From Burkholderiales bacterium (lineage in GTDB: Bacteria; Pseudomonadota; Gammaproteobacteria; Burkholderiales; Burkholderiaceae_C), in the NCBI GenBank assembly GCA_016191525.1, contig JACPOK010000026.1:124001-188000 (forward strand): a DNA stretch of 64,000 nucleotides. Reading direction: 5' to 3'. The position numbers and the translations under genes were made by a program. Positions 6,823-59,929 of the stretch are shown here, piece after piece (within the stretch, counting starts at the first letter, position 1; each line of letters opens with the position of its first letter). The notes below the pieces were generated by a model, which ran no database searches, was not told the DNA's origin, and was given only the letters and a program-made list of their open reading frames with translations.

Positions 6823-7060
6823 GCGTGAAGGAACTCGAACGCGAGGTGCGCGAGCTGCGCGGCGCCAACGTGATGCTGAAGCTGGCCGGCGCGCATTTAA
6901 CCCAGGCGGAGCTCGACCGCCGCTTGAAGTCGTATCGGCATTCGTGGACGAGCATCGCGCTCGCTCCGGGGACGAGCCGATCTGCAAAGCCTTGCAGGTC
7001 GCCCCGTCTGCGTACTGGCTCGAGGCGGCGCGCAAGCGCGATCCTGCGCTGTGCCCGTCC
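6823..7060 (+). pseudogene. IS3-family transposase remnant (orfA end / orfB start)
   Basis: The first part reads VKELEREVRELRGANVMLKL...AELDRRLK, the coiled-coil end of an IS3-family OrfA. Shortly after, in another frame, VDEHRARSGDEPICKALQVAPSAYW matches the OrfB start. This is the natural OrfA/OrfB frameshift junction. The helix-turn-helix, the DDE catalytic core and both terminal repeats are missing, so only about 240 bp of a dead element remain, between dedA and the zinc-ribbon gene. Confidence 0.7.
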
Positions 7061-23777: not shown

Positions 23778-23916
23778 TGCGACGGGCTCGTTCGCATCCT
23801 AGAATTCGTCCCACATGTGCTGTACGCACATACGCCTGCTGAGGCTTATCAGCATCACCCGTGCGGGGTCTACCTCCCGCGTCGGGTCGTCGGCTCCTCA
23901 CGTTCTGGAGGATCCG
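23778..23916 (+). ncRNA. Structured leader, TGCGA-hairpin family member 1
   Basis: Stem TGCGA (23778-23782) / TCGCA (23792-23796) with loop CGGGCTCGT, then TGTGC/GCACA (23816-23830), GCTGA/TCAGC and a CGGG/CCCG hairpin before the ribosome binding site CTGGAGG. Related stems precede the genes at 43086, 53237 and 57989. Confidence 0.45.
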
Positions 23917-30452: not shown

Positions 30453-31139
30453 ATGCGACCGAAAGAAATTGAAGACGATGTTGTTGTCCAAGCGGGCAAA
30501 GAGCTGCGCGCGGCCGGCCGCGCCGTCACGGGCTACGCCCTGCGACGCGAGGTCGGGGGCGGCAGCGCGCAGCGGCTGGCCGCCGTGTGGGCGCAGTTCG
30601 TGGCGGGCGAGCAATCGACGCAGGCGTTGCCGGCCACCCAGCTGCCGATGGAGATCGCCGGCCAGTTGTCGGGGCTGCTGACCGAGATGAGCGAACGCCT
30701 GACCGGGATGGCCCATGCGATGAACGACACGGCGGTTTCCGCCTCGGAGCGCCGGGTCACGGACCTGGTGCGCGCGGCCACCGAGCAGCGCACGCAGGCC
30801 GAGCGCGAGCTGGCCGATGCCGACCAGGCGGTGAGCGAGCTGGAGGCGAACCTCGACCAGGAACGGCAGGCCCGAACGCAGTTGGAATCGCAGCTGCAGG
30901 AGGCCAGTGGGCAGTTGCAGTCGCGCGAGGTCGAGCTGGCCAGGCTGCAGGAAAAGCACCAGGCAGACCGCGAGGAGATCGAGCGCGCTGCCGCGCGCAT
31001 CGTGCAGCTGGAGGCCGACGTGGCGCGGCTGCAGCGCGAGGCCAGCGAGGCGCGCGACGGCGCCGCCGAAGTGCGTGGCGAACTACGCGCGGTCCAGCAG
31101 CAGAACACGCAGTTGCTGCAGAGGATCGGCAAGGGCTGA
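30453..31139 (+). CDS. KfrA-like DNA-binding coiled-coil protein
   Basis: A 228-residue protein: a short N-terminal DNA-binding domain (IEDDVVVQAGKELRAAGRAVTGYALRREVGGGSAQRLAAVW) and a coiled coil filling the rest (RTQAERELADADQAVSELEANLDQERQARTQLESQL). This layout is that of KfrA and related plasmid proteins that bind their own promoter and form filaments or aid partition. No ribosome binding site is seen and the ATG lies close to the likely promoter, so translation may be nearly leaderless. Divergent from the GHKL operon. Confidence 0.8.
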   Translation: MRPKEIEDDVVVQAGKELRAAGRAVTGYALRREVGGGSAQRLAAVWAQFVAGEQSTQALPATQLPMEIAGQLSGLLTEMSERLTGMAHAMNDTAVSASERRVTDLVRAATEQRTQAERELADADQAVSELEANLDQERQARTQLESQLQEASGQLQSREVELARLQEKHQADREEIERAAARIVQLEADVARLQREASEARDGAAEVRGELRAVQQQNTQLLQRIGKG

Positions 31140-31773: not shown

Positions 31774-32154
31774 CCACAAATATGCGCCAAGAAGGTGCGC
31801 CGCTGTAAGCGGTTGGACTACCACTGCTTCTTTCGACCAACAGTGGTTATGCGCGGCAGTTGGAGGACGAATACTCCCACACGGACCTCACCTGAGAGTC
31901 GCACACGAGTCAGTAGCTCGCACAAGAGCAAGCCCCGAGTCGCCTTCGCCGATGCAGCTCGCAGTGATAGCATGCCGTGTCGTCCCGACCCCCTGCTGCA
32001 GGCACGCAGCAATGACGGCTCTGCCGAGCCGCCGGCGAAGCCCACGCGGCTAAGCCCCACCCATCACGATTCTTCCGACCTTGGCCACGAAGCTGGCTTC
32101 GGAGGATCAATTCTGCGCGCGCGAAGTTTTGGCGCGCAGCAGAGCAGGAGATCT
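31774..32154. other. 381-bp gap with hairpins
   Basis: Contains CCACTG/CAGTGG around 31817-31842 and a GCGCGC/GCGCGC hairpin around 32115-32137, shortly before the ribosome binding site of the next gene. An open frame covers the gap but its product is Ser/Arg/Pro-rich and unsupported. No promoter is clear. Confidence 0.35.
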
Positions 32155-32469
32155 ATGACATCCATAACCGCGTCGCTATCGACGCAAAGTCACGGCTCCA
32201 CCGCAACCAGCATGCGAGGACCCGAGCCTTTCCAACACCTGCCGCTTCCCGCCAAGTGCGCCATCGAGTACCTCGATGCGCAAGGCTATGGGAATCGCAG
32301 CATCGCCCGTCTTAACGGCTACCTCGAACACTACTTCCGTGTGTACGGGCTTGCATGCGACGAGCACATCCGCGCCTCGTGCCACCACATTGCGGTGTGC
32401 AGATTCGGCCTCACCGGGGCCGACGCCGAGGGCGATACGTCAATGGGTTGGCACACCGCGAACAAGTAG
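32155..32469 (+). CDS. Hypothetical protein
   Basis: A 104-residue protein whose ATG (32155) follows AGCAGGAGATCT. Its core FQHLPLPAKCAIEYLDAQGYGNRSIARLNGYLEHYFRVYGLACDEHIRASC looks helical with three or four Cys. Function unknown. Confidence 0.55.
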   Translation: MTSITASLSTQSHGSTATSMRGPEPFQHLPLPAKCAIEYLDAQGYGNRSIARLNGYLEHYFRVYGLACDEHIRASCHHIAVCRFGLTGADAEGDTSMGWHTANK

Positions 32470-32540
32470 CGGTCCGATCTCTGACGAGACACGTGGAGTG
32501 CACCAGCACTCCTCACCAATATTTCCACAATTGACTCAAC

Positions 32541-33635
32541 ATGGAACAACAGAAAACCGTTTCGCTGTACTTCACCGAGGGCAGCTCGGACAAGAGCTAT
32601 CAAGCCACGCTGCGTGAACGCGACGGCGGCTGGGTTGTCGACTTCAGCTATGGCCCGCGAGGCAAGGCGCAGAAGACGGGAACCAAGACGGAGACGCCGG
32701 TCGGCTACGCGGCCGCCGACAAGATCTTCGAGAAACTGGTGCGTGAAAAGACGGCCAAGGGTTACACGCCGGACGAAAGCGGCGCCGCGTACACCAACAC
32801 GGAGCACGCGCAGGCATCCAGCGGACTCGCGCCGCAGCTGCCGACCGCGATCACCGAGGCCACCTTCGCAACGCTACTCGTCGACCCACGCTACGGTCTC
32901 GAGGAGAAACGCGACGGCGAGAACCGGCTGCTGCAGGTAACCGGGGAGGGCAAGGTCCGCGGGATCAACCGTCGCGGTTTGTACGTGGACATCCCGCAAG
33001 CGTGGGCCGCGACGCAGTTGGCCACCGTCGGGGGCAGCGTCATAGCCGGAGAGCACATGCCCGGGGACCAGTTCGACGCATTTGACCTGCTCGAGATCGC
33101 CGGCGAGAACCTGCGTTCGCAATCGTATGCCGCAAGGCACGCGCGCCTGGTTCAGTTCGCCGCGCAGCTGGGCGCACCGTGGTTCAAGGTCCTGCCGCTC
33201 TACCGCGACTCCGCGGACAAGCGGGGCGAGGCCGATCGGCTGCGGGCCTGCCAGGCCGAGGGCGTCGTCTTCAAAAGGCTGGATGCCCCCTTCGAAAGCG
33301 GCCGCAGCGCTGCCGCTCTGAAGTTCAAGTTCGTCGACAGCGCAACCTGCATCGTGGTGCGCCAGAACCAGCAGCGATCCGTTGTCGTCGGTTTGCTCGA
33401 CGCCGGCGGCGACGTGGAAGAACTGGGGAACGTGACGATCCCTGCAGGCGAAGCGGTGCCGGCCGTGGACACGCTCGTGGAAGTGCGGTACCTGTACCGC
33501 TACGAGAACGGCTGCTTCGAGCAGCCCGTGTACCTGGGCCCGCGCTCCGACATGACGCGCAACGACGCGACGGTCGACCAGATCGCGCGCATCAAGCGAA
33601 AGACGGCGCAGGAGATGCCTGCCATGGCCGAGTAG
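32541..33635 (+). CDS. WGR domain fused to an ATP-dependent DNA ligase core
   Basis: A 364-residue protein. Residues ~5-75 form a WGR domain (SLYFTEGSSDKSYQATLRERDGGWVVDFSYGPRGKAQKTG), a nucleic-acid-binding unit known from PARPs. From ~110 comes a ligase-type nucleotidyltransferase: GLEEKRDGENRLL (motif I, KxDG, adenylated Lys), AGEHMPGDQFDAFDLL, AEGVVFKRLDAPFESGR (motif IV) and LKFKFVDSATCIVV (motif V), ending in an OB-like region. It is small for a ligase. It may seal or tag nicks; partners nearby are unknown small genes and the DpdA-like gene. Confidence 0.8.
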   Translation: MEQQKTVSLYFTEGSSDKSYQATLRERDGGWVVDFSYGPRGKAQKTGTKTETPVGYAAADKIFEKLVREKTAKGYTPDESGAAYTNTEHAQASSGLAPQLPTAITEATFATLLVDPRYGLEEKRDGENRLLQVTGEGKVRGINRRGLYVDIPQAWAATQLATVGGSVIAGEHMPGDQFDAFDLLEIAGENLRSQSYAARHARLVQFAAQLGAPWFKVLPLYRDSADKRGEADRLRACQAEGVVFKRLDAPFESGRSAAALKFKFVDSATCIVVRQNQQRSVVVGLLDAGGDVEELGNVTIPAGEAVPAVDTLVEVRYLYRYENGCFEQPVYLGPRSDMTRNDATVDQIARIKRKTAQEMPAMAE

Positions 33636-33758
33636 TCGGCCACAGAGACAGTCCCCTTCCCCAGGGGATGGGACGCCGGCACGCGCCGGCGATCCTCATA
33701 TCAACCCGCCGGAGGATCTGTCCCACGGGGCAGCGCCTCCGGCATTCCGGAGACCAAT

Positions 33759-34049
33759 TTGCAAAACATCATCGACCTGTGCGCCCGTATCGAGGCGGGC
33801 TACGAGCAGGGGAAGTCGGGCATGGACAACGGCATGATCGACCGCGTCCTCGAGCTTTCCAACCACGCCAAGTCCATTGGCGAGGCCTTCAAGGAACTTG
33901 CGACGGTCAGGCAGTTGATCGCTGACCTGTGCAGCGAGAGCCAGTTCGACCACTCGGGCACCGAAGTGGAGTCCTTGACGGCCGTTAAGGACCGCGGCCG
34001 CGAATACGTGCGCGCGTTCCTGCCCCAGCATGCCAAAGACCTTGCGTGA
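33759..34049 (+). CDS. Hypothetical protein before the DpdA-like gene
   Basis: A 96-residue helical protein from a TTG at 33759 with GGAGA upstream. It overlaps the DpdA-like start by 20 bp, so they are probably translated together. The sequence (IIDLCARIEAGYEQGKSGMDNGMIDRVLELSNHAKSIGEAFKEL) has no motif I know. Upstream, 33645-33757 holds several hairpins, including CGCCGGC/GCCGGCG. Confidence 0.5.
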   Translation: MQNIIDLCARIEAGYEQGKSGMDNGMIDRVLELSNHAKSIGEAFKELATVRQLIADLCSESQFDHSGTEVESLTAVKDRGREYVRAFLPQHAKDLA

Positions 34050-35163
34050 CACCGTTCGGTCGAGCGCGCCGGCGGCGGCACACCGGCTGCTGGTCCGCGT
34101 GGGCGTGCCCCTCGTGTCCGGCGACCTGACGCTGCGCTGCCTTGCCACCGGACTGCCGCTGCTGTTCTCGGCCAATGCGTTCGCTCGCAATGCCGCGGAC
34201 GGCTCATTCGGCTCGTTCAGGCTGCAGGCGGCCGAGCGCCTGCCCGCTGGCCACGACATCGCGCTGGATAGCGCGGGCTTCGTGAGTTCCGCCCTGTACG
34301 GCGATTACCGATGGTCGATCGACTCCTACCTTGACCTGGTCGCTACAAGGTCCTGGACCTTCTGGGCCTCCTTAGACCACACATGTGAGCCTGAGGTGGC
34401 CGCGAACGCCGCGGTGCGAAGGCTGCGCATCGACGCGACCGTGGCGAACTTCGTGCGCTGCGCAAACCGCGCCGCGCAGCGAGGCCTGTCCGAACCCTTG
34501 TTCATCATCCAGGGCCACACGCCGGACGACTACGAGTACTGCATTCGCACGGCGCCGTTCACCCGATGGCCGCCGCTGGTAGGCATCGGCTCGGTGTGCC
34601 GGCGGCACGCCCATGGCGAGAACGGCCTCCTGCGCGTGATGGAGAGGATCGACGCGCTGCTGCCTGAGGGCACGCGTTGTCACCTGTTCGGCTGCAAGGG
34701 CACCGGCCTCGCGGCCCTGAAGCCGTTCTGGCAACGCCGGATCTTTTCGGTCGACTCGATGGCTTGGGACGTTTCGGCGCGCCGTGCACAGCCGACAGGG
34801 CGCACCCAAGAAATGCGGGCCGCGTTCATGGTCCAGTGGCATGACAAGCTGCAGCAGCGCCTGGCCGATCCGCAGCCGCTGGGCGCTCAAGTGAGCCTGG
34901 ATCTGCGTCGCGTCGACGTGTTCGCAGTCGCCGGCGAAGCCGTGGGCAGCGCGATCGCCGATCTCTACGGGTCCAGCGATCTGGACTACCGGGATTGCAG
35001 TGCGCTTGTGTCAAACGACATGGCCATCGTCTCGTGTCTGCTCAAGTCCGCCGGTGCTGCGGCGTTCGGCGCCGAAGATCCCGAGGAAGACTTCGGCTTG
35101 GGCATCGTCTACGGCGCCGTTCGCCAGGCGCTGATCGACGCAGGAGAGCTGGCCGCCCAGTAG
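34030..35163 (+). CDS. DpdA/TGT-like transglycosylase-family protein
   Basis: A 377-residue protein with features of tRNA-guanine transglycosylase folds: LDSAGFVSSALYG (compare DSGGFQ, the catalytic Asp region), SLDHTCEPEVA, FIIQGHTPDDYEYC, VGIGSVCRR, HLFGCKGTGLAALKPFW and RIFSVDSMAWD. On phages and mobile elements, DpdA relatives insert 7-deazaguanine bases into DNA. No preQ0 genes are in the window, so the precursor would come from the host. Possible role: DNA modification to evade restriction. Start overlaps the preceding gene. Confidence 0.65.
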   Translation: MPKTLRDTVRSSAPAAAHRLLVRVGVPLVSGDLTLRCLATGLPLLFSANAFARNAADGSFGSFRLQAAERLPAGHDIALDSAGFVSSALYGDYRWSIDSYLDLVATRSWTFWASLDHTCEPEVAANAAVRRLRIDATVANFVRCANRAAQRGLSEPLFIIQGHTPDDYEYCIRTAPFTRWPPLVGIGSVCRRHAHGENGLLRVMERIDALLPEGTRCHLFGCKGTGLAALKPFWQRRIFSVDSMAWDVSARRAQPTGRTQEMRAAFMVQWHDKLQQRLADPQPLGAQVSLDLRRVDVFAVAGEAVGSAIADLYGSSDLDYRDCSALVSNDMAIVSCLLKSAGAAAFGAEDPEEDFGLGIVYGAVRQALIDAGELAAQ

Positions 35164-40706: not shown

Positions 40707-40870
40707 TTTCAGTAGCAAAGCGGGTGGACGTATCGGCACTCTGGCGTCTCGGCGTCCCCTGGTGCTAGCATTTGCGGGTCTTTCGACGCCTTGCTGCGGG
40801 CTTATGCAGCACCGTGTCCGGTTCCCGGGCGCAACTGTTTCGGTCGTTAGGACCGACACCTCACTTCAAC
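40707..40870 (+). ncRNA. Structured leader RNA candidate, copy L1
   Basis: Begins TTTCAGTAG (40707-40715). A 36-nt core at 40776-40811 matches 32 of 36 bases of the core at 48728-48763. It ends in the hairpin TGCTGC/GCAGCA, followed by a CCGG/CCGG hairpin, GTTTCG, and CGGTC/GACCG. The distance from TTTCAGTAG to the core is 69 bases here and 67 in L2. It precedes the operon 40956-42829. Confidence 0.5.
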
Positions 40871-40955
40871 CTGCCGATCGCATCCGACTGAGGAACGCGA
40901 GCGGCAATCACACGCCGGCCAGCCCCACGGCTCGCCGCGCGCAAGGACCCAATTC

Positions 40956-41294
40956 ATGGATCAACACCAACCGCGAGTTCTTCTCGCAGAAGCGCCTGTG
41001 CCCTTCGAGTTTCAGGGCCAGACGTTCTTCGGTGCAGGAACGACTCTCACAGAAGACCGCGTTGCGGGGGCCTACCTGGCCGCCGACGGCCTGGTGAAGT
41101 CGGCACACGGTCAACCGATCGGCACCTACCGCGTCACCACGTCGTGGCCGACGCCTCGCAGCTGGATCGCATCTCGCCGCTGCCACGTGCGAGCCATCGT
41201 GAAGGGGCGCACCTACCAGGGACAGAGCTGGGGGACGGGAATGCTGTTCAACGGCCGCCGCCTGGCGGCAGAACTGCGAGGTGTCCGTGGCTGA
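40956..41294 (+). CDS. Hypothetical protein
   Basis: A 112-residue protein behind leader L1. It contains VPFEFQGQTFFGAGTTLTEDRVAGAYLAADG and a basic C-terminal half. Its end overlaps the next gene by 14 bp, so coupling is likely. No family recognised. Confidence 0.55.
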   Translation: MDQHQPRVLLAEAPVPFEFQGQTFFGAGTTLTEDRVAGAYLAADGLVKSAHGQPIGTYRVTTSWPTPRSWIASRRCHVRAIVKGRTYQGQSWGTGMLFNGRRLAAELRGVRG

Positions 41295-42045
41295 TCTCGA
41301 CCAGGACACCTACGTTGCCACCATCGACTACGGACGAGACCCGAGCCTGATCCGCGTCCGCTGCGGCGGCTGCGAGTGGCAGGGCTTCGCATCCTCGCTG
41401 ACCGCGATCGAGGACTGCTCCCTGACCCCGGGTGATGCGTCCCCTGCCGGCCGCTGCCCCGACTGCAATACGCTTGCCTACGTGGAGCGACGGGTGGGAC
41501 CGCCCCCGTTCAAGACGCCGGTCTACCTCGCCGCAGGCAAGTTCCTGTGCGCGGCGGATGCCGAACTCATCGCCCAGCTGGTCGACCACACCCCCGATGA
41601 AGCGGCAGCGCTTGTTCGGCTGGTCAATGCGGCGGTCAACTACGACGACGAAGTCGAGGTGCGAGACCCGGATCCACAAGCCGAGGCCACCTGGAACGCG
41701 CAGTGCGCGAGTGAAGAATGGACCGACGCCGAGCAGCTGCGTCGCATGAGCCTGTTCCTGCGAGAGCGCGGCTTGTTCGATCTGCTGCTACAGCACTCCA
41801 AGATTCCCAGCGACAACGGCATTCTGGGTACCTTCGCAACCCCCGCCAGCGAAAAGCGTCACGGCGCTGCATTCGCTCTTCTCGAAGAAGTCGCCAGCTA
41901 CGAACGCGAGAAGTTTGAAGGAGACCAGGACACCGATCTGAACGTCAGCGGCGCCGATCTGGTCGACTGGTTCAGCGGAGTCCGGGAACGCGCCGACGCC
42001 TTGGTCAAGGCCGAACGTGAATCCTCGGTCGGAGGCACCCAGTGA
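41281..42045 (+). CDS. Hypothetical zinc-ribbon protein
   Basis: A 254-residue protein from GTG 41281. The N-terminal part contains two Cys pairs in a zinc-ribbon arrangement (VRCGGCEWQGF...RCPDCNTLAYVERRVG), then an acidic helical region. It ends with a four-base overlap with the next GTG. Function unknown; probably nucleic-acid or protein binding. Confidence 0.6.
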   Translation: MSVADLDQDTYVATIDYGRDPSLIRVRCGGCEWQGFASSLTAIEDCSLTPGDASPAGRCPDCNTLAYVERRVGPPPFKTPVYLAAGKFLCAADAELIAQLVDHTPDEAAALVRLVNAAVNYDDEVEVRDPDPQAEATWNAQCASEEWTDAEQLRRMSLFLRERGLFDLLLQHSKIPSDNGILGTFATPASEKRHGAAFALLEEVASYEREKFEGDQDTDLNVSGADLVDWFSGVRERADALVKAERESSVGGTQ

Positions 42046-42263
42046 CGCGCTTCTTCATCGACCTGAGAGTCACCGATGCGGAGGAACTCTTTGCCGCGGC
42101 GCTCAGGCACGCGACAACCGTCGAGTCCATGACGCAACAACAGGCCGAGGAACTCCTCAAGCCTGCCGGGGAGATCGACGAGGCCGCGTGCCTGGTGATG
42201 CTGCTCGACCCGGGTGTCTCACCTTCCGGGACGGAGATCGACGAATCCGGAGTGGAGTCATGA
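42042..42263 (+). CDS. Hypothetical small protein
   Basis: A 73-residue acidic protein from GTG 42042, overlapping both neighbours by four bases (GTGA, ATGA). Sequence: TRFFIDLRVTDAEELFAAALRHATTVE near the start. No known motif. Confidence 0.55.
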   Translation: MTRFFIDLRVTDAEELFAAALRHATTVESMTQQQAEELLKPAGEIDEAACLVMLLDPGVSPSGTEIDESGVES

Positions 42264-42829
42264 GCACGCACTATGTTCCCATCGACCCACACCAGCTGCA
42301 TGCCGACTGGATCGGGTATGACCACCGCGGCTTTGCGCCAAGCCCCCGCCAGCGGCTCCTGATGGGTGCCATCCGGCAGGCTCTCGCCGAGAGGCTGTTC
42401 GACAGCGAGGCCGTCAAGGATCGGGTTGCCCAGTTGGTCGGATACGCGCGCGGTTCGGACACGAACGTGCTGAACGTCCACGGCGGCGATTTCGGCATGG
42501 ACGTCTATTACGCGCGTCGGGCTCGCGAAGCCGAGTCACGCAACGAGGCGGAAGCCGAGACAGCATCCGAGATGTGTCTGCAAGCCGAGGAATCGCTCGG
42601 AACGCTGGTGTTCTCCGACTACAAGCGGACCACCGGGGTGAAGCTGCTTGAACCTGTGGACGCGTGGACCTGGAAGTTCGAGGGCAAGCGCGGCTCGTCG
42701 CGAGTGGCGGGCACGGCAAGCGTTCTGCAGCTGAAGAGCGCTATCGACCGGGCCTTTCAGCAAGGCGCCCGCAAGGGACCCTACGCGCAGTTCCTGGCAA
42801 GCCGGGACTGCACCGCACTTCTGGTTTAG
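42260..42829 (+). CDS. Hypothetical protein
   Basis: A 189-residue protein ending the L1-led operon. The segment ADWIGYDHRGFAPSPRQRLLMGAIRQALAERLFDSEAVKDRVAQLVGYARG is helical and basic. A middle coil (REAESRNEAEAETASEMCLQAEE) follows. No family recognised. Confidence 0.55.
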   Translation: MSTHYVPIDPHQLHADWIGYDHRGFAPSPRQRLLMGAIRQALAERLFDSEAVKDRVAQLVGYARGSDTNVLNVHGGDFGMDVYYARRAREAESRNEAEAETASEMCLQAEESLGTLVFSDYKRTTGVKLLEPVDAWTWKFEGKRGSSRVAGTASVLQLKSAIDRAFQQGARKGPYAQFLASRDCTALLV

Positions 42830-42839
42830 GGCGTCGCCC

Positions 42840-43075
42840 CGAGCCGAGTACCTGCCGCAACACATCACGCGGCAGGCGAGAACACCCACGGTGTTCTCCC
42901 AAGCACTCGCGACGAGTCCTTGGGAGAGCGCCGGCACTAAAGCTGCCAGCCGCAACTTTCGTTGGCCTCCGCCAACCCCGTGCGACCGGGTCATGTCGCA
43001 AGCCTCGGCCTATGCCGAGGTCATCCACCCTGCAGGGGGCGTTCCCCTGTGGGCGCCCCTTGCTTTTCTTTTTTT
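42840..43075 (+). ncRNA. Multi-hairpin leader with terminator-like end (attenuator candidate)
   Basis: Hairpins in order: CTGCCGC/GCGGCAG (42852-42875), GAGAACACC/GGTGTTCTC (42878-42898), a two-part stem (42899-42923), GTTGGC/GCCAAC (42961-42976), TGCGAC/GTCGCA (42981-43000), CCTCGGC/GCCGAGG (43003-43020) and CAGGGG/CCCCTG (43033-43049). The last overlaps an alternative GGGGCG/CGCCCC stem followed by TTTTCTTTTTTT, then TGAGGAGAG and the ATG at 43086. Alternative stems plus a T-run before the ribosome binding site is the layout of a riboswitch or attenuator. Confidence 0.55.
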
Positions 43076-43085
43076 GAGGAGAGCA

Positions 43086-43364
43086 ATGACACACTCAAAA
43101 GCGTGCGATTCCGTGCCCGCTGGCGAGCCGGCCTACACCCGCAATGGCTACCGGTTCTACGCCCAGCCTGATGGGACATGGTTGATCGTGGACGGCGATG
43201 GCGAAGACGCGCGGCGCGCCGCGACCTTCGATTTGGCCACCACCTCCGGGCGACCGTCCAACATCCAGCTGCTTGGTCTCTACTCGACACAGCGATTCCA
43301 ATTGGAAGACCTGATCGAGACGTTCGCGAAGCATGCGGCGGCGGGAGGTGAGCGTGGCGGGTGA
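43086..43364 (+). CDS. Hypothetical small protein
   Basis: A 92-residue protein, ATG 43086 five bases after GAGGAGAG. Contains GYRFYAQPDGTWLIVDGDGEDARRAATFDLATTSG. First gene after the multi-hairpin leader. Function unknown. Confidence 0.6.
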   Translation: MTHSKACDSVPAGEPAYTRNGYRFYAQPDGTWLIVDGDGEDARRAATFDLATTSGRPSNIQLLGLYSTQRFQLEDLIETFAKHAAAGGERGG

Positions 43365-44268
43365 TTTCGAAAATCTCTTCGCCATCGGCCTCCAGGAACC
43401 CCCTCAAGGTTCCGGCCCATCGACCGACGTGCTGGAGGAGGCCGCGCCCACGCCGGCGCATCCGGTCGCCGACATGCAGCGCGACTACGAACAGGCATTC
43501 GTGCTGTACGAGAAGGCCTTCGAGGCCTTCGAAGAGGCTGATCGTGTGGCCCCTGGCTACAGCAGTCGAATCTCGCGCTCGTCGGTCGACTACGACGACA
43601 TGAGCCGCTGCGCCGTCCGCAAGACAGTTGAACTGTTCACCGAGCAGGTCCTTGGTGGATCGGCAAAGCTGGACGACGATGAAGAGTTCACTCGGGCTAC
43701 GGGCACGAGCCTCAGCGACGCCCTCTACGGCGAACGCGGCCGGCGCCGGCATCGCCACCACGATGACGACGAGGAACAAGCCCCCGTCAGGTTGGACCTG
43801 ATCGCGCTGTGGGACTCCATGGCACGCGTCTACGACGATGGAGGTGTGTGGCTGTCCCGCCATCAGGCGGCCAACGCCATCATGGACGAATGGCGATTGC
43901 AAAGCCAACCGTTCGAGGTGAAGAACGGGAAGGCCTTGATCGAGCACCGCGTGTACTCGGAGCCGCCGTCCAGTTATCAACCTCGGCGCGTCCACTACAA
44001 CTACGTCCAAGGGCTGACCAAGCTGTGCAAGGCCCTGGACGTCTTCTTCGACTACGCCGACCTTTCGGGCCAGGCCACGCGCATGCTGTGGAACATGCAG
44101 GGTTCGCGTGGGCATGACGTGGTGATCGACTCCGGCTCCACCCACGTGGTGGTGCCCGGGCTGGCGCAAGTTCGGACCTTCAACGAGCAGTGGAAGTGGA
44201 CGATGCGCGCAGACATGGCGGAGAAGCTGCGCGAGTTCATCGCCGCCTACCACCCGCCGAAGCAGTAG
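43354..44268 (+). CDS. Hypothetical protein, possibly DUF4942-like
   Basis: About 304 residues from a GTG at 43354 that follows GGGAG. It has a helical N-terminus (YEQAFVLYEKAFEAFEEADRV), a His/Asp-rich linker (RHRHHDDDEE) and a C-terminal domain ending VRTFNEQWKWTMRADMAEKLREFIAAYH. The final segment vaguely resembles DUF4942 proteins of mobile elements. Confidence in that link is low. Confidence 0.55.
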   Translation: MAGDFENLFAIGLQEPPQGSGPSTDVLEEAAPTPAHPVADMQRDYEQAFVLYEKAFEAFEEADRVAPGYSSRISRSSVDYDDMSRCAVRKTVELFTEQVLGGSAKLDDDEEFTRATGTSLSDALYGERGRRRHRHHDDDEEQAPVRLDLIALWDSMARVYDDGGVWLSRHQAANAIMDEWRLQSQPFEVKNGKALIEHRVYSEPPSSYQPRRVHYNYVQGLTKLCKALDVFFDYADLSGQATRMLWNMQGSRGHDVVIDSGSTHVVVPGLAQVRTFNEQWKWTMRADMAEKLREFIAAYHPPKQ

Positions 44269-44294
44269 TCATCCGGCCTCGCGGCCGCCCAGGT

Positions 44295-44318
44295 CCCCCG
44301 CGTCTTTGCGCGCGGGGG
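44295..44318 (+). other. GC-rich hairpin between genes
   Basis: CCCCCGCG (44295-44302) pairs with CGCGGGGG (44311-44318). There is no T-run. It sits 51 bp before the methyltransferase-helicase gene. Confidence 0.4.
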
Positions 44319-44369
44319 ATCGCAGGGTGACGGGTTGAATCCCCGCCGCCCTTCTTCACACTTATCCGA

Positions 44370-47300
44370 ATGACTTCTTGGAGAGAACGACTCGAAGAAC
44401 TTACCAGTCTCGGCGCCGCCCATGCGGGCGTGTCGCGTCTGGCCGATCTGGCGCAAGCCCGGTCGGAACACCTGGGGCAGTTCTTCACCCCCCTACCGAT
44501 CGCCCGCCTCATGTGGGCAGTGGTCGAGCAAGCCGCGTCCGACATCCCGGACGAGACCTTGAGCATTCTGGACAACTCTGTCGGCAGCGGCAGGTTGTTG
44601 CACTTCGCGGTCCCGGAACGCCATCGGCTGTTCGGGCTCGATGTCCACCAGGATTCGATGCAGCTCCTGCAAGAGGAAGCCGAGAAAGCAGGGTTCACCT
44701 GCGAGTTCAGGGCCTGCGCGATGGAAGATGCAGCGCCGAAGGACTTCGACGTCGCCCTGATCAACCCTCCGTTCAGTTTGAACCTGCAGAGCCCACATAT
44801 GAAGCCCTATCCGTGCACCCGATGGGGTCGGTTCGGGCCGAGTTCGGGGGCCACCAGCGACGAATACGCCCTCGCCCAGGCACTTGCCGCGGCGCAGCTG
44901 GTTGTCGCCCTGCTTCCGGCGAGTACCGTCGACGCGCTCTTGACCAGCGGCAACGAGCTGCTCGGTGACGATGCGAAACGCTTGCGCGCCATCTACGACC
45001 TGAGCGCCAAAGCGTTCCGGGAGGAGGGCGCGAACGTGACCACAGCAATCGTCGTGTTCGGGCCCTCGAAGTCGAGCAGGCCTGTCCACCGAGCGAAGGT
45101 GGCCGATGTGGCCGCTTTTGTGCTTCCGGCAATGGGGGTACAGCTGGAAGCGCGTTCCTGGGCCAAACCCCGCCTTCGCGTGGCATTGCCCGACACGGAA
45201 GCGCCGGCGATCACGCTGCCAGTCACGGGGGACCGACAGGTCCGCGTGGTCCACAGCGGCCGGAAGATCCACCTCAAGTTCAAGTGTGGATTCATGCAGG
45301 CCCGCTGCCTCAACGCGGTGTACCGGCGTGTGGTCCGTTCAACACTGGAGCACCGACTGCCCAACGGCGTGCGGTTCGCGGGCCAGGGCCTGCTGGACGT
45401 CGAGTGCATCTTGGCTGCCGAGAAGCCTGCTGACGAATGGCACCGACTGCTTGACACGCTGAGAGGCGAGGGGGCCGATGTGCTGGTTGACCCCGGACTC
45501 GGCAACTATCTCAAGCGGCGAATCCGGGCGCTGAAGCGCTCGACGATGCCGTTCGGTCATTGGATCTGGCAGGAGGATGCCGGCGACCAGGTGATGGCGA
45601 CCGCGGCGGTGCCGGTGGCGCTGAACCCAAAGTCTTGGGTGTCGCCGGTGGTCAAGGCGGGAGAACAGGCCCCCCTGCGCCGGGTCAATGGTGCATGGGA
45701 ACTGGAGTGGCAGGGCCAGACCCGCACGTTCACGCCCGACGAAGCCCGCAAGGTGTTTTCGTTCGGTGACTGCGAAGCGGGCTGGGTGCAGCTGCACCCG
45801 CCGCTGCAGGAGCTCTTCCCGAGCGAGGCGCAGTCCTTGCGCGCGAGAGCGCGCCAGCTCGGCATCGATCAGTGGCTGAACTGGGACTACCAGTTCGAAG
45901 ACTTGATCGAGTTGTGCCTGCGCCCACGTGGCGCTGTATGCGCGTGGAAACAGGGGCTTGGCAAGGCGCGGTTGGCCGCGGCCATAGCGCTGTTGCTGGG
46001 AGTGCGTGCGAGCGTCATCGTGATGCCCGCATTCCTGCTCGACGAGTTCCCAGACAGGCTGGATGCAGCAGGGCTGGACCGCACGCTGTGGCAGGTGATC
46101 CGGAGTCCGTCGGACATCCAGCAGCTGCGCGTGATCAACGTGATCAGCTACGAGCGCCTGCGCATGGAAATGCCGGGCACGAAACGAACCTACGCGGCCG
46201 CCCTCCGTCGTCGCGCGTCGCTTGCGATTTGCGACGAAGGGGAGGTGCTGGCCAACGATAGCAGCGACCAGAGCAGGGCCGTCGCCCAGCTCGCGCCGCG
46301 CAAGTTGTTCATCCTCACGGGTACGCCGATTCCGAACTACCCGAGGGACTTGCTGAACGTCGCTGCGCAAGCAGTTGGCGACGGTGTAGTGGGGCAACCC
46401 TATGGCGTGTATCAGCCGATGCTCGCAGCGGCGAACGTCCGTTCCATGGAGTTCGCTGAGCGAGGTAAGGCGGCCTTTGCTGATGCATTCTGCAGCTGGG
46501 TGTGGACCACGCCCGAATTCGCCGAGACCTTGCAGACTGGGGCGAAGCGGGAAGTTCCGAAGATCGCGAGCTTGTCACGCTATCGAGCGTGGCTCGGCCC
46601 GTTCATTAAGCGCCGCTTGACCGATGAGCCCGAAGTGGCTCGGTGGGTGCGAATTCCGAAACCCGACACCGAGATCCATGAGATCGAGTGGGACCGGGCA
46701 CACCTCGCACATTACCTGCGCGTGGCTGACGAATTCGCCCATTGGTGGAAGCAACGCAACGAGGATCGGCGTGGCGGCAATCTGATCGCGCTTTTGGCGC
46801 GGATCGACGCCGTCATCCAGGCTGGCAACGCGCCGCAGGTGCCGTCATCCAAGGGTTCTCCGTCGCTGTATCGCGGGAGCCTGACTTCCAAGCAGCGTTG
46901 GGTTATCAACCGCGCTGTCGAACTGGCAGGCACTGCCAAGGTGGTGGTCTACGCCCGCTCCCCGTCACTGCTGGACCTGATGGCCGAGGAGATTAATGGC
47001 TGCGGCATGGACGCCGTGGTCTATCACGGCGAAGTCAGCCAGGCCGCACGTCGAGCGGGACTCAAACGGTTCCGGCACGGCGAGTCCAATGTTTTGTTGG
47101 CGAGCTACGGCGTTACAAGGGCAGGGCTGGACCTGTACCAGGCGAAACACGCAATCCTCGCGTCTCGCTCGTGGTCGGATCGCGAAGAAGATCAGGCGAT
47201 CCGCCGGCTCCTCCGCCCGCAGCAGCGCCAGGCAGTGAGTGTCGACAAGCCGCACCTGCGAGGTGGCATCGACGTCTACCAGGACCAGCTGGTGGCCTGG

Positions 47301-47465
47301 AAGGCCTCGGCCGCGAACGCCGGGCTCGATTGGGCGACGCCGATCAGTGATGACCAGGAGTTTTTCCACCTGGACCAGATCCTCGGCCGCTTTGTCGAGA
47401 ACCTGGCGTCGATGCACAAGATGAATGCCCGCGACTTTCGGGAGTGGGCAAAGGAGACCGCATGA
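44370..47465 (+). CDS. N6-adenine methyltransferase joined to SNF2-type helicase
   Basis: A 1031-residue protein. The N-terminal part is an amino-methyltransferase: QFFTPLPIARLM, SILDNSVGSGRLL (SAM binding) and ALINPPFSLN (NPPF catalytic motif). The C-terminal half is a superfamily 2 helicase: AVCAWKQGLGKARLAAAIALL (motif I, with Gly-Lys-Ala in place of Gly-Lys-Thr), LAICDEGEVLAND (motif II, DEGE), ILTGTPIPNYPRD (motif III), and QAIRRLLRPQQRQA (motif VI). No nuclease motif was seen. It may be a transfer-protective modification or antirestriction factor. Confidence 0.8.
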   Translation: MTSWRERLEELTSLGAAHAGVSRLADLAQARSEHLGQFFTPLPIARLMWAVVEQAASDIPDETLSILDNSVGSGRLLHFAVPERHRLFGLDVHQDSMQLLQEEAEKAGFTCEFRACAMEDAAPKDFDVALINPPFSLNLQSPHMKPYPCTRWGRFGPSSGATSDEYALAQALAAAQLVVALLPASTVDALLTSGNELLGDDAKRLRAIYDLSAKAFREEGANVTTAIVVFGPSKSSRPVHRAKVADVAAFVLPAMGVQLEARSWAKPRLRVALPDTEAPAITLPVTGDRQVRVVHSGRKIHLKFKCGFMQARCLNAVYRRVVRSTLEHRLPNGVRFAGQGLLDVECILAAEKPADEWHRLLDTLRGEGADVLVDPGLGNYLKRRIRALKRSTMPFGHWIWQEDAGDQVMATAAVPVALNPKSWVSPVVKAGEQAPLRRVNGAWELEWQGQTRTFTPDEARKVFSFGDCEAGWVQLHPPLQELFPSEAQSLRARARQLGIDQWLNWDYQFEDLIELCLRPRGAVCAWKQGLGKARLAAAIALLLGVRASVIVMPAFLLDEFPDRLDAAGLDRTLWQVIRSPSDIQQLRVINVISYERLRMEMPGTKRTYAAALRRRASLAICDEGEVLANDSSDQSRAVAQLAPRKLFILTGTPIPNYPRDLLNVAAQAVGDGVVGQPYGVYQPMLAAANVRSMEFAERGKAAFADAFCSWVWTTPEFAETLQTGAKREVPKIASLSRYRAWLGPFIKRRLTDEPEVARWVRIPKPDTEIHEIEWDRAHLAHYLRVADEFAHWWKQRNEDRRGGNLIALLARIDAVIQAGNAPQVPSSKGSPSLYRGSLTSKQRWVINRAVELAGTAKVVVYARSPSLLDLMAEEINGCGMDAVVYHGEVSQAARRAGLKRFRHGESNVLLASYGVTRAGLDLYQAKHAILASRSWSDREEDQAIRRLLRPQQRQAVSVDKPHLRGGIDVYQDQLVAWKASAANAGLDWATPISDDQEFFHLDQILGRFVENLASMHKMNARDFREWAKETA

Positions 47466-47704
47466 AAACGGATACCAGCTCCGTCGCAATAGGAGAGGGC
47501 GTAGTGGTCCTCAGGCGCAGAGGTCGACCGGCGGCAACGGCGGCGATTCTCGGCAGTCAGGCCGGACCGGATGGCCTCACGCAGACATTCTGGCTTGACC
47601 GGATGCTGCATGAGCCCGGGGAGGACACGTTGGGTGGCCACCCGGTGTGCGGCGCCGTCGTCACGCAAATCGTCGTGCCGGCAGGCATGGATCTACAGGA
47701 GTAA
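47462..47704 (+). CDS. Hypothetical small protein
   Basis: An 80-residue protein starting at an ATGA overlap with the methyltransferase-helicase gene. Includes GEGVVVLRRRGRPAATAAILG. Followed by a strong terminator. It may be an accessory of the large enzyme, judged only by coupling. Confidence 0.55.
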   Translation: MKTDTSSVAIGEGVVVLRRRGRPAATAAILGSQAGPDGLTQTFWLDRMLHEPGEDTLGGHPVCGAVVTQIVVPAGMDLQE

Positions 47705-47709
47705 CGTTG

Positions 47710-47743
47710 AAGGGTTCGCCGCAAGGCGGACCCTTCTTTTTTT
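47710..47743 (+). terminator. Intrinsic terminator of the 43086-47704 operon
   Basis: AAGGGTTCGCC pairs with GGCGGACCCTT (one mismatch) across GCAA, followed by CTTTTTTT. Confidence 0.88.
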
Positions 47744-47852
47744 GTGATCGCCGCAGTGGTGCGTGGCACGGCGAATACGTTCAGGCCCCGGTCCAGGGCG
47801 CAGGCCACAATGGTGGACAAATCAGTTCCGGGAGGTGCCGGGATCCATATCG

Positions 47853-48629
47853 ATGAAGCACGAGCAACCCCTCAAAGGCAATCCAAATCAGATCACCGTC
47901 AACCAGCATGTACTTCCTCGTTCGGCGATCGCGCGATTCGCCAAGGGCGCTGGCTTGGTCGAGGTTCAAAGGCTCGCTGGCAGCGCCCCCTTCAAGCTGA
48001 AGCCGGACGACGAACTGTTTTGTGCACGGCGAGCGTGGGATCAGGGGTCGGAAACGTTTCGCACACACGAAACCGAACAAGCCTACGCAGGGCTAGCGGA
48101 CAAGATCGTCGCCGGCCATGTGAACGGACTCTCGCCAGCGATGGACGAGATTGTGAGCGCCTTCTATTCTCTGTGGCGGCATCGACAGGCAGCACGACTT
48201 CAACCGATTTCCGACGCGCGGCTCAATTTGGAGGAAGCTGAGAGAACTCTTGATAAGCACGCCGAGGAGGTCATTGAATCCAAGGGCGGTCTGTTCATTC
48301 GCGGCGACACCGTTCCGAGTCGGTTCATGACGGGGCTGACGATGATGCGGGCGATCGACTGGCACGTGAGCACGCTAAGAGGCTCACACTGGGGGATCGT
48401 CAGATCCGAGTACGCGCACTTTCTCGTACCCGATGGTCCAGGGGAGATCTGCGCTGTTCCGCTATGCCCGACGATTTGCCTGTGCAAGGACATGCCTGAC
48501 GTGATCGTGACGGCGCCGCAGGTTGGTGAGATGAATCGTCAGCTGCTCGAACGCTCGGCCAGCTACTACTTCGGCGATGAACTGGACCGATGCCCAATTC
48601 TGCGTCGAACCATTCCATGGGAAGAGTAA
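47853..48629 (+). CDS. DUF4238-like hypothetical protein
   Basis: A 258-residue protein. Its start ITVNQHVLPRSAIARFA resembles the HYVPQ-type opening of DUF4238 proteins, which have a helical core and unknown role. The inner region HRQAARLQPISDARLNLEEAERTLDKHAEEVIESKGGLF is helical. No good ribosome binding site precedes the ATG at 47853, and the frame is open back to 47763. Sits alone between a terminator and leader L2. Confidence 0.55.
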   Translation: MKHEQPLKGNPNQITVNQHVLPRSAIARFAKGAGLVEVQRLAGSAPFKLKPDDELFCARRAWDQGSETFRTHETEQAYAGLADKIVAGHVNGLSPAMDEIVSAFYSLWRHRQAARLQPISDARLNLEEAERTLDKHAEEVIESKGGLFIRGDTVPSRFMTGLTMMRAIDWHVSTLRGSHWGIVRSEYAHFLVPDGPGEICAVPLCPTICLCKDMPDVIVTAPQVGEMNRQLLERSASYYFGDELDRCPILRRTIPWEE

Positions 48630-48660
48630 GAGGCAAGCGCCGATCGCAACATCTCAGGTA

Positions 48661-48820
48661 TTTCAGTAGGTACCGGGACTCGCCTGTCGGCGGCTGTACT
48701 CGGTCGGGACCCGGTGGTACCATTCTTGGGTCTTTTGACGCCCTGCTGCGGGCTCACGCAGCAATAGGCCCGTTCGGGCCGTTTCGCAGTCCCTCATAGG
48801 GCCTGCTTCACTTTCCATTT
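48661..48820 (+). ncRNA. Structured leader RNA candidate, copy L2
   Basis: Begins TTTCAGTAGG (48661). A GGTACC...GGTACC long-range stem follows, then the 36-nt core at 48728-48763 with hairpin TGCTGCG/CGCAGCA, GGCCCG/CGGGCC, GTTTCG and GCAG-CCC/GGG-CTGC, then TTCACTTT. Same order of elements as L1 with different paired bases. It precedes the operon containing ftsA. Confidence 0.5.
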
Positions 48821-48894
48821 CGACTTCACACCGGGCACGTCCGTCCGTTGCGGTGTTGACCCGAGCACGTTCGCGAGCTCGGAAAGGCCTTCCC

Positions 48895-49500
48895 ATGCAA
48901 ATTGAAGAGCGGCAGGCATTGCCTGCCCACGCCGGCCGCGCATTGGCCGAGCAAATTTCAACCGTGACGCTCCTGATGCGCGCGGAAGAGTTGCTCGGGC
49001 AAGCGATGAGCCAGCACATTTATGACGCGGCCAACGGCGAGAAGCCGGGGCCCGAGTGCGCCTATACGGTGCTCCTGTCCGATTTGAAGACCTTCCTGGC
49101 GCATCCGCGTCCAGTTCCTGGTGACGTCTTGGCAGAGGGTTTGAGGCTCATCGCATCCCAGAGCATCGGGCCTGACTGGACGCACCAGCAAGCCTTCGAC
49201 TTCATTCGCACCACAGCCAAAGCGCATCTGGCCACCGCCGCTGGATTGCCGCCGGCAAAGATCGTGATGGTGCTCAGCGGCGGCTTACTGCAAAGCGGCC
49301 ACGGCAGCGACCCGTTCCCGCACATGGATGTCGTGCTGGTCGACCGCGATCACCTTGAGGAACGCGGCCTTTCGGACGACGAGTCCGACGAGATCGAAGC
49401 GGCAGCGATCGCCGACTGCCCGAACGCACTGCTTTGGGTAGTGGCAGACCCGGCCAAAGAAGTGGCCAGCCCCTCGTTTGGAGGCTGTCATGTCGAGTAG
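48895..49500 (+). CDS. Hypothetical protein upstream of ftsA
   Basis: A 201-residue soluble protein from ATG 48895. GGAAAGG lies close upstream in a sequence, GGAAAGGCCTTCCCATG, that is identical at the cadR start (18270-18286). It contains HQQAFDFIRTTAKAHLATAAGLPPAKIVMVLSGG and PFPHMDVVLVDRDHLEERG. It overlaps ftsA by 11 bp. No family recognised. Confidence 0.6.
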   Translation: MQIEERQALPAHAGRALAEQISTVTLLMRAEELLGQAMSQHIYDAANGEKPGPECAYTVLLSDLKTFLAHPRPVPGDVLAEGLRLIASQSIGPDWTHQQAFDFIRTTAKAHLATAAGLPPAKIVMVLSGGLLQSGHGSDPFPHMDVVLVDRDHLEERGLSDDESDEIEAAAIADCPNALLWVVADPAKEVASPSFGGCHVE

Positions 49501-50710
49501 CCATAGCGGCCTCATCGTCGCACTGGACATCGGCACCAGCAAGGTAGAGGCAGTGATCGGGGAAGCAAAGGGCAACGGTGCTCTGCAACTCCTGGGCCGC
49601 GGCAAAGCGGTGATCGACGGCCTCGAAGGCGGCGTCGTGATCGACATCGAAGCCACAGCGCACAGCGTGCGCCAAGCCTTGAGAGAAGCGGAGGCCCAGG
49701 CCAAGCAGAAGGCCACGCGGGTCATCGCTGGAGTCACGGGGAACCATCTTCGGGTGTTCACCTCCAGTAGCGTCGTGGCTCTCAGCGGCCGCGAAGTAAC
49801 CCCTGCGGATGTGGCTCGCGGTATGCGCATCGCGCAAGCGATCGCACTACCCACCGACCAGCGACTGTTGATGGTGGAGCCTCAGGGCTTCCTGATCGAC
49901 GGTCAACACGGGAGGAACCCGGTCGGCATGTCAGGAGCTTCCCTGGAGACCCGTGTCCATGTCGTCACGGGCGGCAACGGCCCGATTGAAAACCTCTGCA
50001 AGAGCATCCGCTTGGGCGGAGTTGAGGTGGAACATTTGGCCCTGAATTCAGTCGCCACCTCACTTGCGGTCCTGAGCGACGATGAACGCAAGATGGGCGT
50101 GGCGGTCGTGGATGTCGGAGCCGGAACGACCGATGTGACGATTTTCAGTGACGGCATGCTTCGGCACGCTGCTTCGATCTCGATCGGAGGCAACCAACTC
50201 ACTGGAGATATCGCAAAGGCACTTCGGACGGCTCGTACAGAGGCCGAGTCGCTGAAGCGTGCGTCCGGCTGCGCAGTGCAGGCCTTGGCCGACGCCGACA
50301 AGCTGTTTGATGTGCGTCACCTGGTTGGTCACGAGAAATTTGTGGTCAGCCAGCGAGCACTGTCTGCGGTGATCGAGCCACGCCTCGAGGAGATCTTCGC
50401 GCTGGTGCAGCAGGTGATCCGTGAGTCGGGGTTCGAGGAAGCAATCACCGCTGGGGTGGTCATCGCTGGTGGATGCTCTGCGATGCCTGGGATGGTCGAA
50501 CTCGCGCTAGACGTGATCCAGAAGCCTGTGCGCCTCGGGATGCCCATGTCGGATCGGCCTGGGTTCGAGACCTTCACCGGCGCCGGCGACGCAACTGTTG
50601 CTGGCCTGTTGGAACAAGGGCGCCGCATCCGCGAACGGCCTTTGGCCGTCCCCGCGAAGCCGGCGAGCAATTCTTGGCTTCAAACATTCATGAGGAGGGC
50701 TCACCCATGA
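49490..50710 (+). CDS. ftsA: Element-borne FtsA-like actin-family protein
   Basis: A 406-residue protein with FtsA order throughout: phosphate 1 LIVALDIGTSKVEAVIGE, the 1C/SHS2 insertion (VIAGVTGNHLRVFTSSSVVALSGREVTPADVARGM), phosphate 2 VAVVDVGAGTTDVTIF, adenosine region GVVIAGGCSAMPGM, and a C-terminal amphipathic helix (SWLQTFMRRAHP) like the membrane-binding tail. FtsA normally anchors FtsZ at the division site and is chromosomal beside ftsQ/ftsZ; neither is here. GGAGG lies six bases before ATG 49490. It may alter host division or have been recruited for DNA segregation. Confidence 0.85.
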   Translation: MSSSHSGLIVALDIGTSKVEAVIGEAKGNGALQLLGRGKAVIDGLEGGVVIDIEATAHSVRQALREAEAQAKQKATRVIAGVTGNHLRVFTSSSVVALSGREVTPADVARGMRIAQAIALPTDQRLLMVEPQGFLIDGQHGRNPVGMSGASLETRVHVVTGGNGPIENLCKSIRLGGVEVEHLALNSVATSLAVLSDDERKMGVAVVDVGAGTTDVTIFSDGMLRHAASISIGGNQLTGDIAKALRTARTEAESLKRASGCAVQALADADKLFDVRHLVGHEKFVVSQRALSAVIEPRLEEIFALVQQVIRESGFEEAITAGVVIAGGCSAMPGMVELALDVIQKPVRLGMPMSDRPGFETFTGAGDATVAGLLEQGRRIRERPLAVPAKPASNSWLQTFMRRAHP

Positions 50711-57838: not shown

Positions 57839-57988
57839 TGCGACAGGCCGTGTACGGTTGTCGCAGCCCCGGGCGTGTGACAGAATCGAAATGCAATCAC
57901 CCGTGCTGGCGGATACCCAGCATCACCCCGGCAGCCCCTGCCGGGGCCGCTGTCGGGGGTCTTTGATCACAACCCCAAGGAAACCGAC
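57839..57988 (+). ncRNA. Structured leader, TGCGA-hairpin family member 4
   Basis: TGCGACA (57839-57845) pairs with TGTCGCA (57859-57865) around an inner CCGT/ACGG stem. Then GCTGG/CCAGC, CCCCGGCA/TGCCGGGG and GGGGT/ACCCC hairpins, then AAGGA before ATG 57989. Confidence 0.45.
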
Positions 57989-59899: not shown

Positions 59900-59929
59900 G
59901 GGTTGCTCCGTTCAATTCAGGAGCATTCC

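Follow-up and report, generated by a model that had tools for sequence, protein, structure and literature searches.

A candidate family of structured leader RNAs upstream of unrelated operons on a plasmid-like replicon of a Burkholderiales bacterium

The 64,000-nucleotide (nt) stretch analyzed here, referred to as the window, comprises bases 124001–188000 of the 278,571-base contig C27 (JACPOK010000026.1) in the 5.0 Mb genome of a Burkholderiales bacterium (GCA_016191525.1), and contains two similar elements, L1 and L2, each located ahead of an unrelated operon. A preliminary description of the window had presented them as two copies of a conserved structured leader RNA about 8 kb apart. The contig carries not two but at least four copies (L1–L4), and we regard the chances as evenly balanced that L1 and L2 are two of a replicon-wide series of structured 5' leaders acting in cis to control the translation or stability of backbone operons. 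A separate family of leaders with a similar layout, arguably a stronger find than the pair in the window, was detected on related plasmids of the Burkholderiaceae.

Leader copies on the contig

The resemblance between L1 and L2 was confirmed. Both copies, like the other leaders of the window given below and the genes behind them, lie on the forward strand and contain the element TTTCAGTAG (40707–40715 in L1, 48661–48669 in L2) and, at spacings of 69 and 67 bases respectively, the 36-nt core GGGTCTTTYGACGCCYTGCTGCGGGCTYAYGCAGCA (40776–40811 and 48728–48763), identical at 32 of 36 positions with all four differences being C/T exchanges. A TGCTGC/GCAGCA hairpin and two later hairpins, whose stems differ yet still pair, are predicted in both, and the AUG codons opening the two unrelated operons, at 40956 and 48895, lie 145 and 132 nt past the core. 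The local alignment of L1 with L2 scores 105, whereas the maximum among 300 mononucleotide shuffles was 57, and blastn aligns them with 81.5% identity over 54 nt (expectation value, E, 1.1e-9). Folded as wholes of 105–108 nt, L1 and L2 give z-scores of −1.62 and −2.55.

An extended −10 box, identified by consensus match in the alignment of L1–L4, ends just before the core in L1 (TGCTAGCAT, 40763–40771, with TTTCAGTAG starting 56 nt before it) and in L2 (TGGTACCAT, 48715–48723); a simple sigma-70 scan recognized no full −35/−10 promoter at either. In both copies 4 nt separate the box from the core, so that the transcript would probably begin with the core or close to its first base, a position taken from the consensus match. 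The putative leader RNAs, from this start to the AUG, would span 40776–40955 (180 nt) in L1 and 48728–48894 (167 nt) in L2. Their predicted folds comprise H0 (GUC-UUUC-GAC at 40778–40787 in L1; GUC-UUUU-GAC at 48730–48739 in L2), H1, which is also evident as a dyad (UGCUGC-GGGCUUAU-GCAGCA at 40792–40811; UGCUGC-GGGCUCAC-GCAGCA at 48744–48763), H2 (40814–40832, 8 bp; 48767–48780) and H3 (40837–40859, at the GTTTCG linker; 48786–48806), H2 and H3 of L1 appearing in both the minimum-free-energy and the centroid fold.

L3 and L4 surfaced when all of C27 was searched for the H1 dyad, and both show the extended −10 box, an H0-type hairpin and CC followed by the UGCUGC/GCAGCA stem. In L3 the box TGATAGCAT lies at 31965–31973, the putative leader of about 178 nt at 31977–32154, and the predicted hairpins H0, H1 (6-nt loop) and H2 at 31979–31989, 31994–32011 and 32016–32031. 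L4 lies outside the window, at contig positions 219059–219249, before genes for PRTRC proteins C, B and A and ThiF. The UGCUGC/GCAGCA stem starts 20–22 nt after the −10 box in all four copies, and the distance from the inferred start to the AUG is 180, 167, 178 and 177 nt in L1, L2, L3 and L4. Upstream, TCAGTAG precedes the box in L1, L2 and L3 (at 31910–31916 in the last), its first base lying 54, 52 and 55 nt ahead of it, and by eye L4 shows no more than a weak match at a comparable distance; this motif, about 60–67 bases ahead of the inferred start, could serve as an activator site, which is a guess.

A covariance model was built from the two original copies, as the preliminary description had proposed. 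Run on all 278,571 bases, this model of L1 and L2 alone returned L3 as its top untrained match (25.2 bits, E 1.1e-4), followed by a site at contig position 218130 on the minus strand (14.8 bits, E 0.093) and by L4 (14.7 bits, E 0.096), which matched model positions 27–53 only, the H1 half. The membership of L3 is thus well supported, and the case for L4 depends chiefly on where it lies and how it is laid out. A second model, R1, was trained on L1–L4, so that its scores for these copies are not evidence.

A looser set, here called A-type, has UGCUG..CAGCA 14–31 nt after an ordinary −10 box and UCACC soon afterwards, the sixth pair of the stem often being A-U, G-C or U-A. By heuristic gene calls, 9 of the 23 TGCTG..CAGCA sites on C27 are intergenic, compared with 9% of the contig; these nine include L1–L4. 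One A-type leader at 23800–23916 (−10 TAGAAT, hairpin UGCUGA-GGCUUA-UCAGCA at 23837–23854, then UCACC, AUG at 23917) has a hairpin that lies within a heuristically called open reading frame (ORF) and is not among the nine; another lies at 57881–57988 (−10 CAGAAT, hairpin UGCUGG..CCAGCA at 57904–57922, then UCACC, AUG at 57989). Their assignment to the L family is tentative.

Two further resemblances were observed. L1 (contig position 164861) and L4 (219181) share TCACTTCAAC 3' of the hairpins, which L2 and L3 keep in part and which we take to resemble the boxA antitermination motif. A 28-nt stretch at window positions 6140–6170 is similar to a segment of the L4 leader (CTCTTGCC..ATCCCACG..ATCAC), without an L-type head.

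Folding of the leaders

The bodies of the leaders, i.e. the parts following H1, played no role in finding the copies, and compared with dinucleotide shuffles they give z-scores of −3.64, −2.23, −2.05 and −3.81 in L1–L4. The bodies of three A-type leaders give −4.60 (23800–23916), −4.05 (57881–57988) and −2.87. The H1 loop measures 8 nt in L1 and L2, 6 nt in L3 and 9 nt in L4, a variability more easily accommodated by an RNA hairpin than by a rigid DNA dyad, and H0 is flipped in L4 (GAC/GUC instead of the GUC/GAC of the others). The case for an RNA is thus made from the fold of the bodies, the variable loop length and the analogy with the leaders of related plasmids described next.

A separate leader family on Burkholderiaceae plasmids

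A recurring element, here called B-type, was noticed in pHG1 of Cupriavidus necator and in a plasmid of Burkholderia contaminans (20 intergenic stretches, six related plasmids). Its layout often runs from a −10 box through 13 nt to a hairpin GCGUC-NNN-GACGC (the B-type H1), AUCGAC, more hairpins, a Shine–Dalgarno sequence (SD) and the AUG. Searched with a model, R3, built from 12 copies, six Burkholderiaceae plasmids (loci L186–L238) gave 54 matches at E<=0.1, those 12 included, with 8–10 in each plasmid (9 in pHG1 of C. necator H16); with one exception, the matches in any one plasmid share the same strand. R3 also found 11 matches, all on one strand, in pMOL28 of C. metallidurans CH34, a plasmid outside the training set that was chosen because its DNA matched the head. 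Ten of the 11 have an E of at most 4e-5, and all 11 were left out of the leader statistics. No R3 match occurred in the plasmids of Rhodanobacter denitrificans, Dyella, Ahniella, Xanthomonas and Thiodictyon, and the sole match in the Rhodanobacter thiooxydans plasmid, lying inside a predicted gene, was rejected.

Fifty-one of the 54 leaders were analyzed, W02 333697, W07 742295 and W06 6694 being left out. For the B-type H1, an alignment fitted to the structure (A8), which includes the genic row of R. thiooxydans and the doubtful W12 328619, gave a covariation score of 0.123 versus 0.064 ± 0.010 in shuffles, a value reached by 0 of 500, with both-side changes in 9 cells across 52 distinct rows. 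The leader in front of parB was followed further. That of B. contaminans has matches in 37 plasmid records, which come without exception from Burkholderia, Cupriavidus, Paraburkholderia, Caballeronia or Robbsia, with a coverage of at least 80% in 22 of the 37, while others, such as pMOL28, match in the head only. Fifteen of these records, excluding W02 and W08 for an inserted hairpin, entered an alignment made by sequence (A9), whose covariation score was 0.110 versus 0.068 ± 0.007 (0 of 500 shuffles); 98% of the cells pair and 9 have both-side changes, 13 of 500 shuffles contain as many pairs changed on both sides, and slid versions score 0.039 or less, a comparison in which prediction of the structure from the same alignment favours that structure. 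An extra hairpin of the parB leader, GCCGGC/GCCGGC, GCUGAC/GUCAGC and others, stands outside the A9 count.

A stem over the SD is predicted in 25 of 32 B-type leaders (20 distinct stems) versus 10 of 43 controls, which were genes of two of the six plasmids (Fisher P 2.6e-6); the 32 are the leaders with a recognizable SD–AUG, none being found in the searched range of the other 19 of the 51. The 51 bodies have a mean z of −2.65 versus −1.11 in controls (P 3e-5). As copies on different plasmids are partly orthologous, these numbers overstate independence. A terminator-like hairpin, starting about 45–115 nt after the −10 box, is present in 8 of the 51 (W02 345256, W06 55550, W07 728982, W07 735761, W07 749547, W12 261441, W12 266389 and W12 290594), and part of this group might be small RNAs and not leaders of mRNAs.

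The two families have the type of carrier, the position and the layout in common, and by eye GGGUCUUUCGACGCC of L1 is similar to GCGUCUUCGACGC. They are alike in layout, homology being not demonstrated, and may represent the same kind of device with a lineage-specific sequence. In the Ahniella plasmid, L017:10900-11277 and L017:18142-18640 share by eye CTATCCGCGCAACTC, perhaps that plasmid's own version of the leader.

Searches for relatives and known families

The preliminary description had held that a lack of further homologues would leave a simple duplicated promoter; homologues are indeed lacking from the other genomes and collections searched, and within C27 they are present. Neither L1 together with its first gene nor L2 had a blastn match among 72,556 plasmids. 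Among 200 genomes of the same family, 8 matched L2 including its own, the other seven over 20–34 nt at E 0.001–0.008. A 21-nt core pattern occurred once in a collection of genome contigs, inside a long ORF that resembles a ribonucleotide reductase, and was absent from a viral contig collection, where no loci related by the 254-amino-acid protein were found either; at least 120 stretches matching a loose promoter–hairpin pattern in those viral contigs were taken as chance. Homologues of the 201- and the 254-amino-acid protein are present on contigs of up to 146,911 and 32,208 bases, respectively.

With R1, 41 of 399 genomes of the order, including its own, had a match at E<=0.05 under stricter filters. 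Fifteen of 17 loci inspected fall within a predicted gene, as judged with a heuristic caller at the locus midpoint (which differs from the match in L157, L161 and L163), TGNTA is kept in 0 of 10 alignments inspected, and these candidates were discarded. Twelve related plasmids gave 5 weak R1 matches in 3 records, the two best of which, in the B. contaminans plasmid, are genic and were likewise set aside.

As regards known families, the earlier statement that no described family resembles the leaders now has Rfam 15 behind it: at the gathering score nothing was matched in the window, L1, L2 and L3 included, apart from an ALIL pseudoknot (RF01497) at 6890–7006, a frameshift signal of IS3-family elements. 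At E<=5, L1 has 0, L2 has 2 and L4 has 2 matches, all far below the gathering score and unrelated by name, and there was no Rfam match in loci L015 and L019 of the related plasmids. No description of either leader family was found in Rfam or in the accessible portions of the open literature searched, which included PMC2864571, PMC9045368, PMC7563307, PMC9378689 and PMC11790492. The Burkholderiales-1 motif (Weinberg 2010), considered here from its listing alone, is a candidate RNA from the same order as the related plasmids and is tabled without an Rfam number.

Carrier replicon and genes behind the leaders

C27 encodes PRTRC ParB (gene at 59903–61705 in the window) and PRTRC proteins E, C, B and A as well as ThiF, six of six being above the NCBIfam cut-offs with protein F left out. 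The SNF2-type helicase/methyltransferase at 44370–47465 has relatives with up to 46% identity on 70 plasmid records, including plasmids of Xanthomonas, Cupriavidus, Burkholderia, Paraburkholderia and Caballeronia, and a search of 399 genomes from the family found it at E<=1e-30 in the window's own genome alone. On the basis of the PRTRC proteins and of these relatives on plasmids, C27 is therefore a PRTRC-type megaplasmid or an integrated relative; the contig ends without overlap.

The genes behind the leaders differ from copy to copy. L1 precedes genes spanning 40956–48629, which from their spacing would form one operon: small proteins of unknown nature (ORFs 40956, 41281, 42017, 42891 and 43333), the helicase/methyltransferase, 47444–47704 and 47763–48629. 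L2 precedes a 201-amino-acid unknown protein and an FtsA homologue (48895–50710), and L3 a 104-amino-acid ORF with an SD and no family match (32155–32469), a protein with WGR and RNA-ligase domains (32541–33635) and a DpdA homologue (34030–35163), in a segment of 32155–35163. A KfrA_N protein is encoded at 30453–31139, about 0.8 kb upstream of L3. Two of these genes are of separate interest: the homologue of the cell-division protein FtsA (49478–50710), above the TIGR01174 cut-off, is encoded on a plasmid-like contig, and the DpdA homologue (7-deazaguanine DNA modification, PF23859) is part of the backbone and adjoins the WGR/RNA-ligase-domain protein.

Discussion

Control of plasmid genes is known mainly through DNA-binding repressors and the antisense RNAs of replication. 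The alternative suggested here for the window's leaders has to be weighed against several results that speak against it. The preliminary description had regarded structure kept while sequence varies as the mark of a functional RNA, and this argument is not supported by the window's own copies: the covariation score of L1–L4 was reached by 135 of 500 shuffles and is not significant. Control upstream regions (n=60, from two related plasmids) average z −1.11, so that part of the z of the leader bodies is background. Long-range pairing between the 5' end and the SD was matched by shuffles in 15 of 1000 cases for L1, 280 for L2, 427 for L3 and 124 for L4, and, being good in L1 only, was dropped as a general feature; SD hairpins were found in 2 of 4 leaders of the window versus 21 of 106 heuristically called C27 genes, a small sample. 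R3 finds no B-type leader in C27, the best match having E 1.1. Even in the B-type family not every measure is favourable, since for H1 the number of pairs with both-side changes (2) and of pair types (4) was reached by 173 and 199 of 500 shuffles, and for the parB leader the pair types by 307 of 500. Moreover, with the covariation tool used, kindred sequences can beat every shuffle without any structure.

The main rival explanation, in view of the KfrA_N protein encoded before L3 and of the established networks of IncP-1 plasmids, is that the TGCTGC–GCAGCA dyad downstream of the promoters is a DNA operator for a dimeric repressor resembling KorA/KorB or KfrA, or for PRTRC ParB, the RNA hairpin being incidental. 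We consider it unlikely, while giving it serious weight. The KfrA_N protein and PRTRC ParB would be candidate repressors on the replicon itself, and no variation occurs in the six core pairs of H1 across L1–L4. Constant half-site spacing is typical of dimer operators, whereas the spacers here measure 6, 8, 8 and 9 nt and are asymmetric and partly conserved (GG..A); furthermore, the leader bodies that follow the dyad outscore shuffled sequence in folding, and the hairpins of the related plasmids covary up to the SD. According to PMC11790492, IncP-1 plasmids co-ordinate their operons through shared KorA/KorB sites, a likeness to the window's leaders in that one short site recurs at many backbone promoters of one plasmid; the OB sites described there lie upstream of their promoters, unlike the dyad of C27, which is downstream of the −10 box, within the transcribed leader, and has a variable spacer and candidates only for its cognate repressor.

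An RNA head might also act on transcription itself, binding the elongating RNA polymerase so that terminators in long backbone operons are read through. For this there is a precedent in phage HK022, whose putL and putR are, according to PMC9378689, two similar two-stem RNAs of about 70 nt that follow early promoters and act without protein factors; like L1 and L2, they are similar structured RNAs after promoters of separate operons of one element, with a layout recalling H1 and H2. Suppression of termination by put is direct and involves the zinc-binding domain of the polymerase's beta' subunit. The terminator-like hairpins in 8 of the 51 related-plasmid leaders would suit such a role, as would the location of the sole NusG match of the genome on contig C17 and of none on C27, which, by leaving the element without a NusG paralogue of the RfaH/ActX kind, makes an RfaH-type route unlikely. 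In contrast to HK022 put, compared here by layout only, C27 has at least four copies, and a terminator-like site is absent from L1–L4 and from three A-type leaders tested. Since operon ends carry terminator-like sites before the next leader (U-tract hairpins at four places in L015 and L019, by eye), which would serve no purpose if the leaders suppressed termination, antitermination of this kind becomes less likely, and we hold it to be improbable.

Protection of mRNA from decay by a 5' hairpin, as in ompA, would call for neither regulation nor a dedicated factor, and L1–L4 might then be copies of a duplicated promoter segment. The hairpin near the inferred 5' end and the common extended −10 box fit this simplest reading. 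Stability alone would not, however, require one sequence, and H1 with its loop is sequence-specific, the four copies precede backbone operons and their leaders have similar lengths, for which reasons we judge it rather unlikely. The chance that the core instead encodes a short leader peptide, GSFDALLRA[YH]AA, in L1 and L2 seems to us very small. By hand inspection the frame is open to a TAG in both, and two of the four exchanges are synonymous, another falls in a third position and the last changes a residue; against this, there is no common ATG, GTG or TTG start with an SD, L3 (6-nt loop) and L4 (9-nt loop) lose the peptide past the hairpin, and the inferred transcript start leaves no space for an SD.

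Cis-regulatory leaders that sequester the SD form a general class, and the related-plasmid family resembles it in having a structured 5' leader with the SD in a hairpin. What sets the leaders apart from that class is that one head recurs before many unrelated operons of a single replicon, and an SD hairpin is not evident in the copies of the window.

If the window's elements are indeed cis-acting leaders, their transcripts would start a few bases after the extended −10 box and open with a common head, formed by the GUC/GAC hairpin and then UGCUGC/GCAGCA with its G-rich loop; operon-specific hairpins would follow, with the AUG about 170–180 nt in. The head might be the recognition point for one shared trans factor, either a plasmid or host RNA-binding protein or a small RNA, while the operon-specific body would set ribosome access or mRNA stability, and unrelated backbone operons could thereby be adjusted together. 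The transcript starts, the trans factor and the post-transcriptional action of these leaders are all inferred. More broadly, and with doubts that outweigh our confidence, we suggest that PRTRC megaplasmids run an RNA regulon in which one factor reads a common head on many operons, an RNA counterpart of the Kor networks; the heads would be lineage-specific, UGCUGC/GCAGCA here and GCGUC/GACGC-AUCGAC in the Burkholderiaceae, as if head and reader co-evolved against cross-talk.

The occurrence of the related family on named plasmids such as pHG1 and pMOL28 makes these ideas directly testable, in part with published transcript-start data. According to PMC7563307, transcript-start mapping gave a TAnAAT −10 consensus on pMOL30, the chromosome and the chromid and not on pMOL28, and the B-type leaders may bear on the consensus missing there. 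A structured leader shared by many unrelated operons of one replicon would, if true, constitute a different layer of control, and our findings point to an undescribed RNA-based control of the genes that maintain such plasmids.

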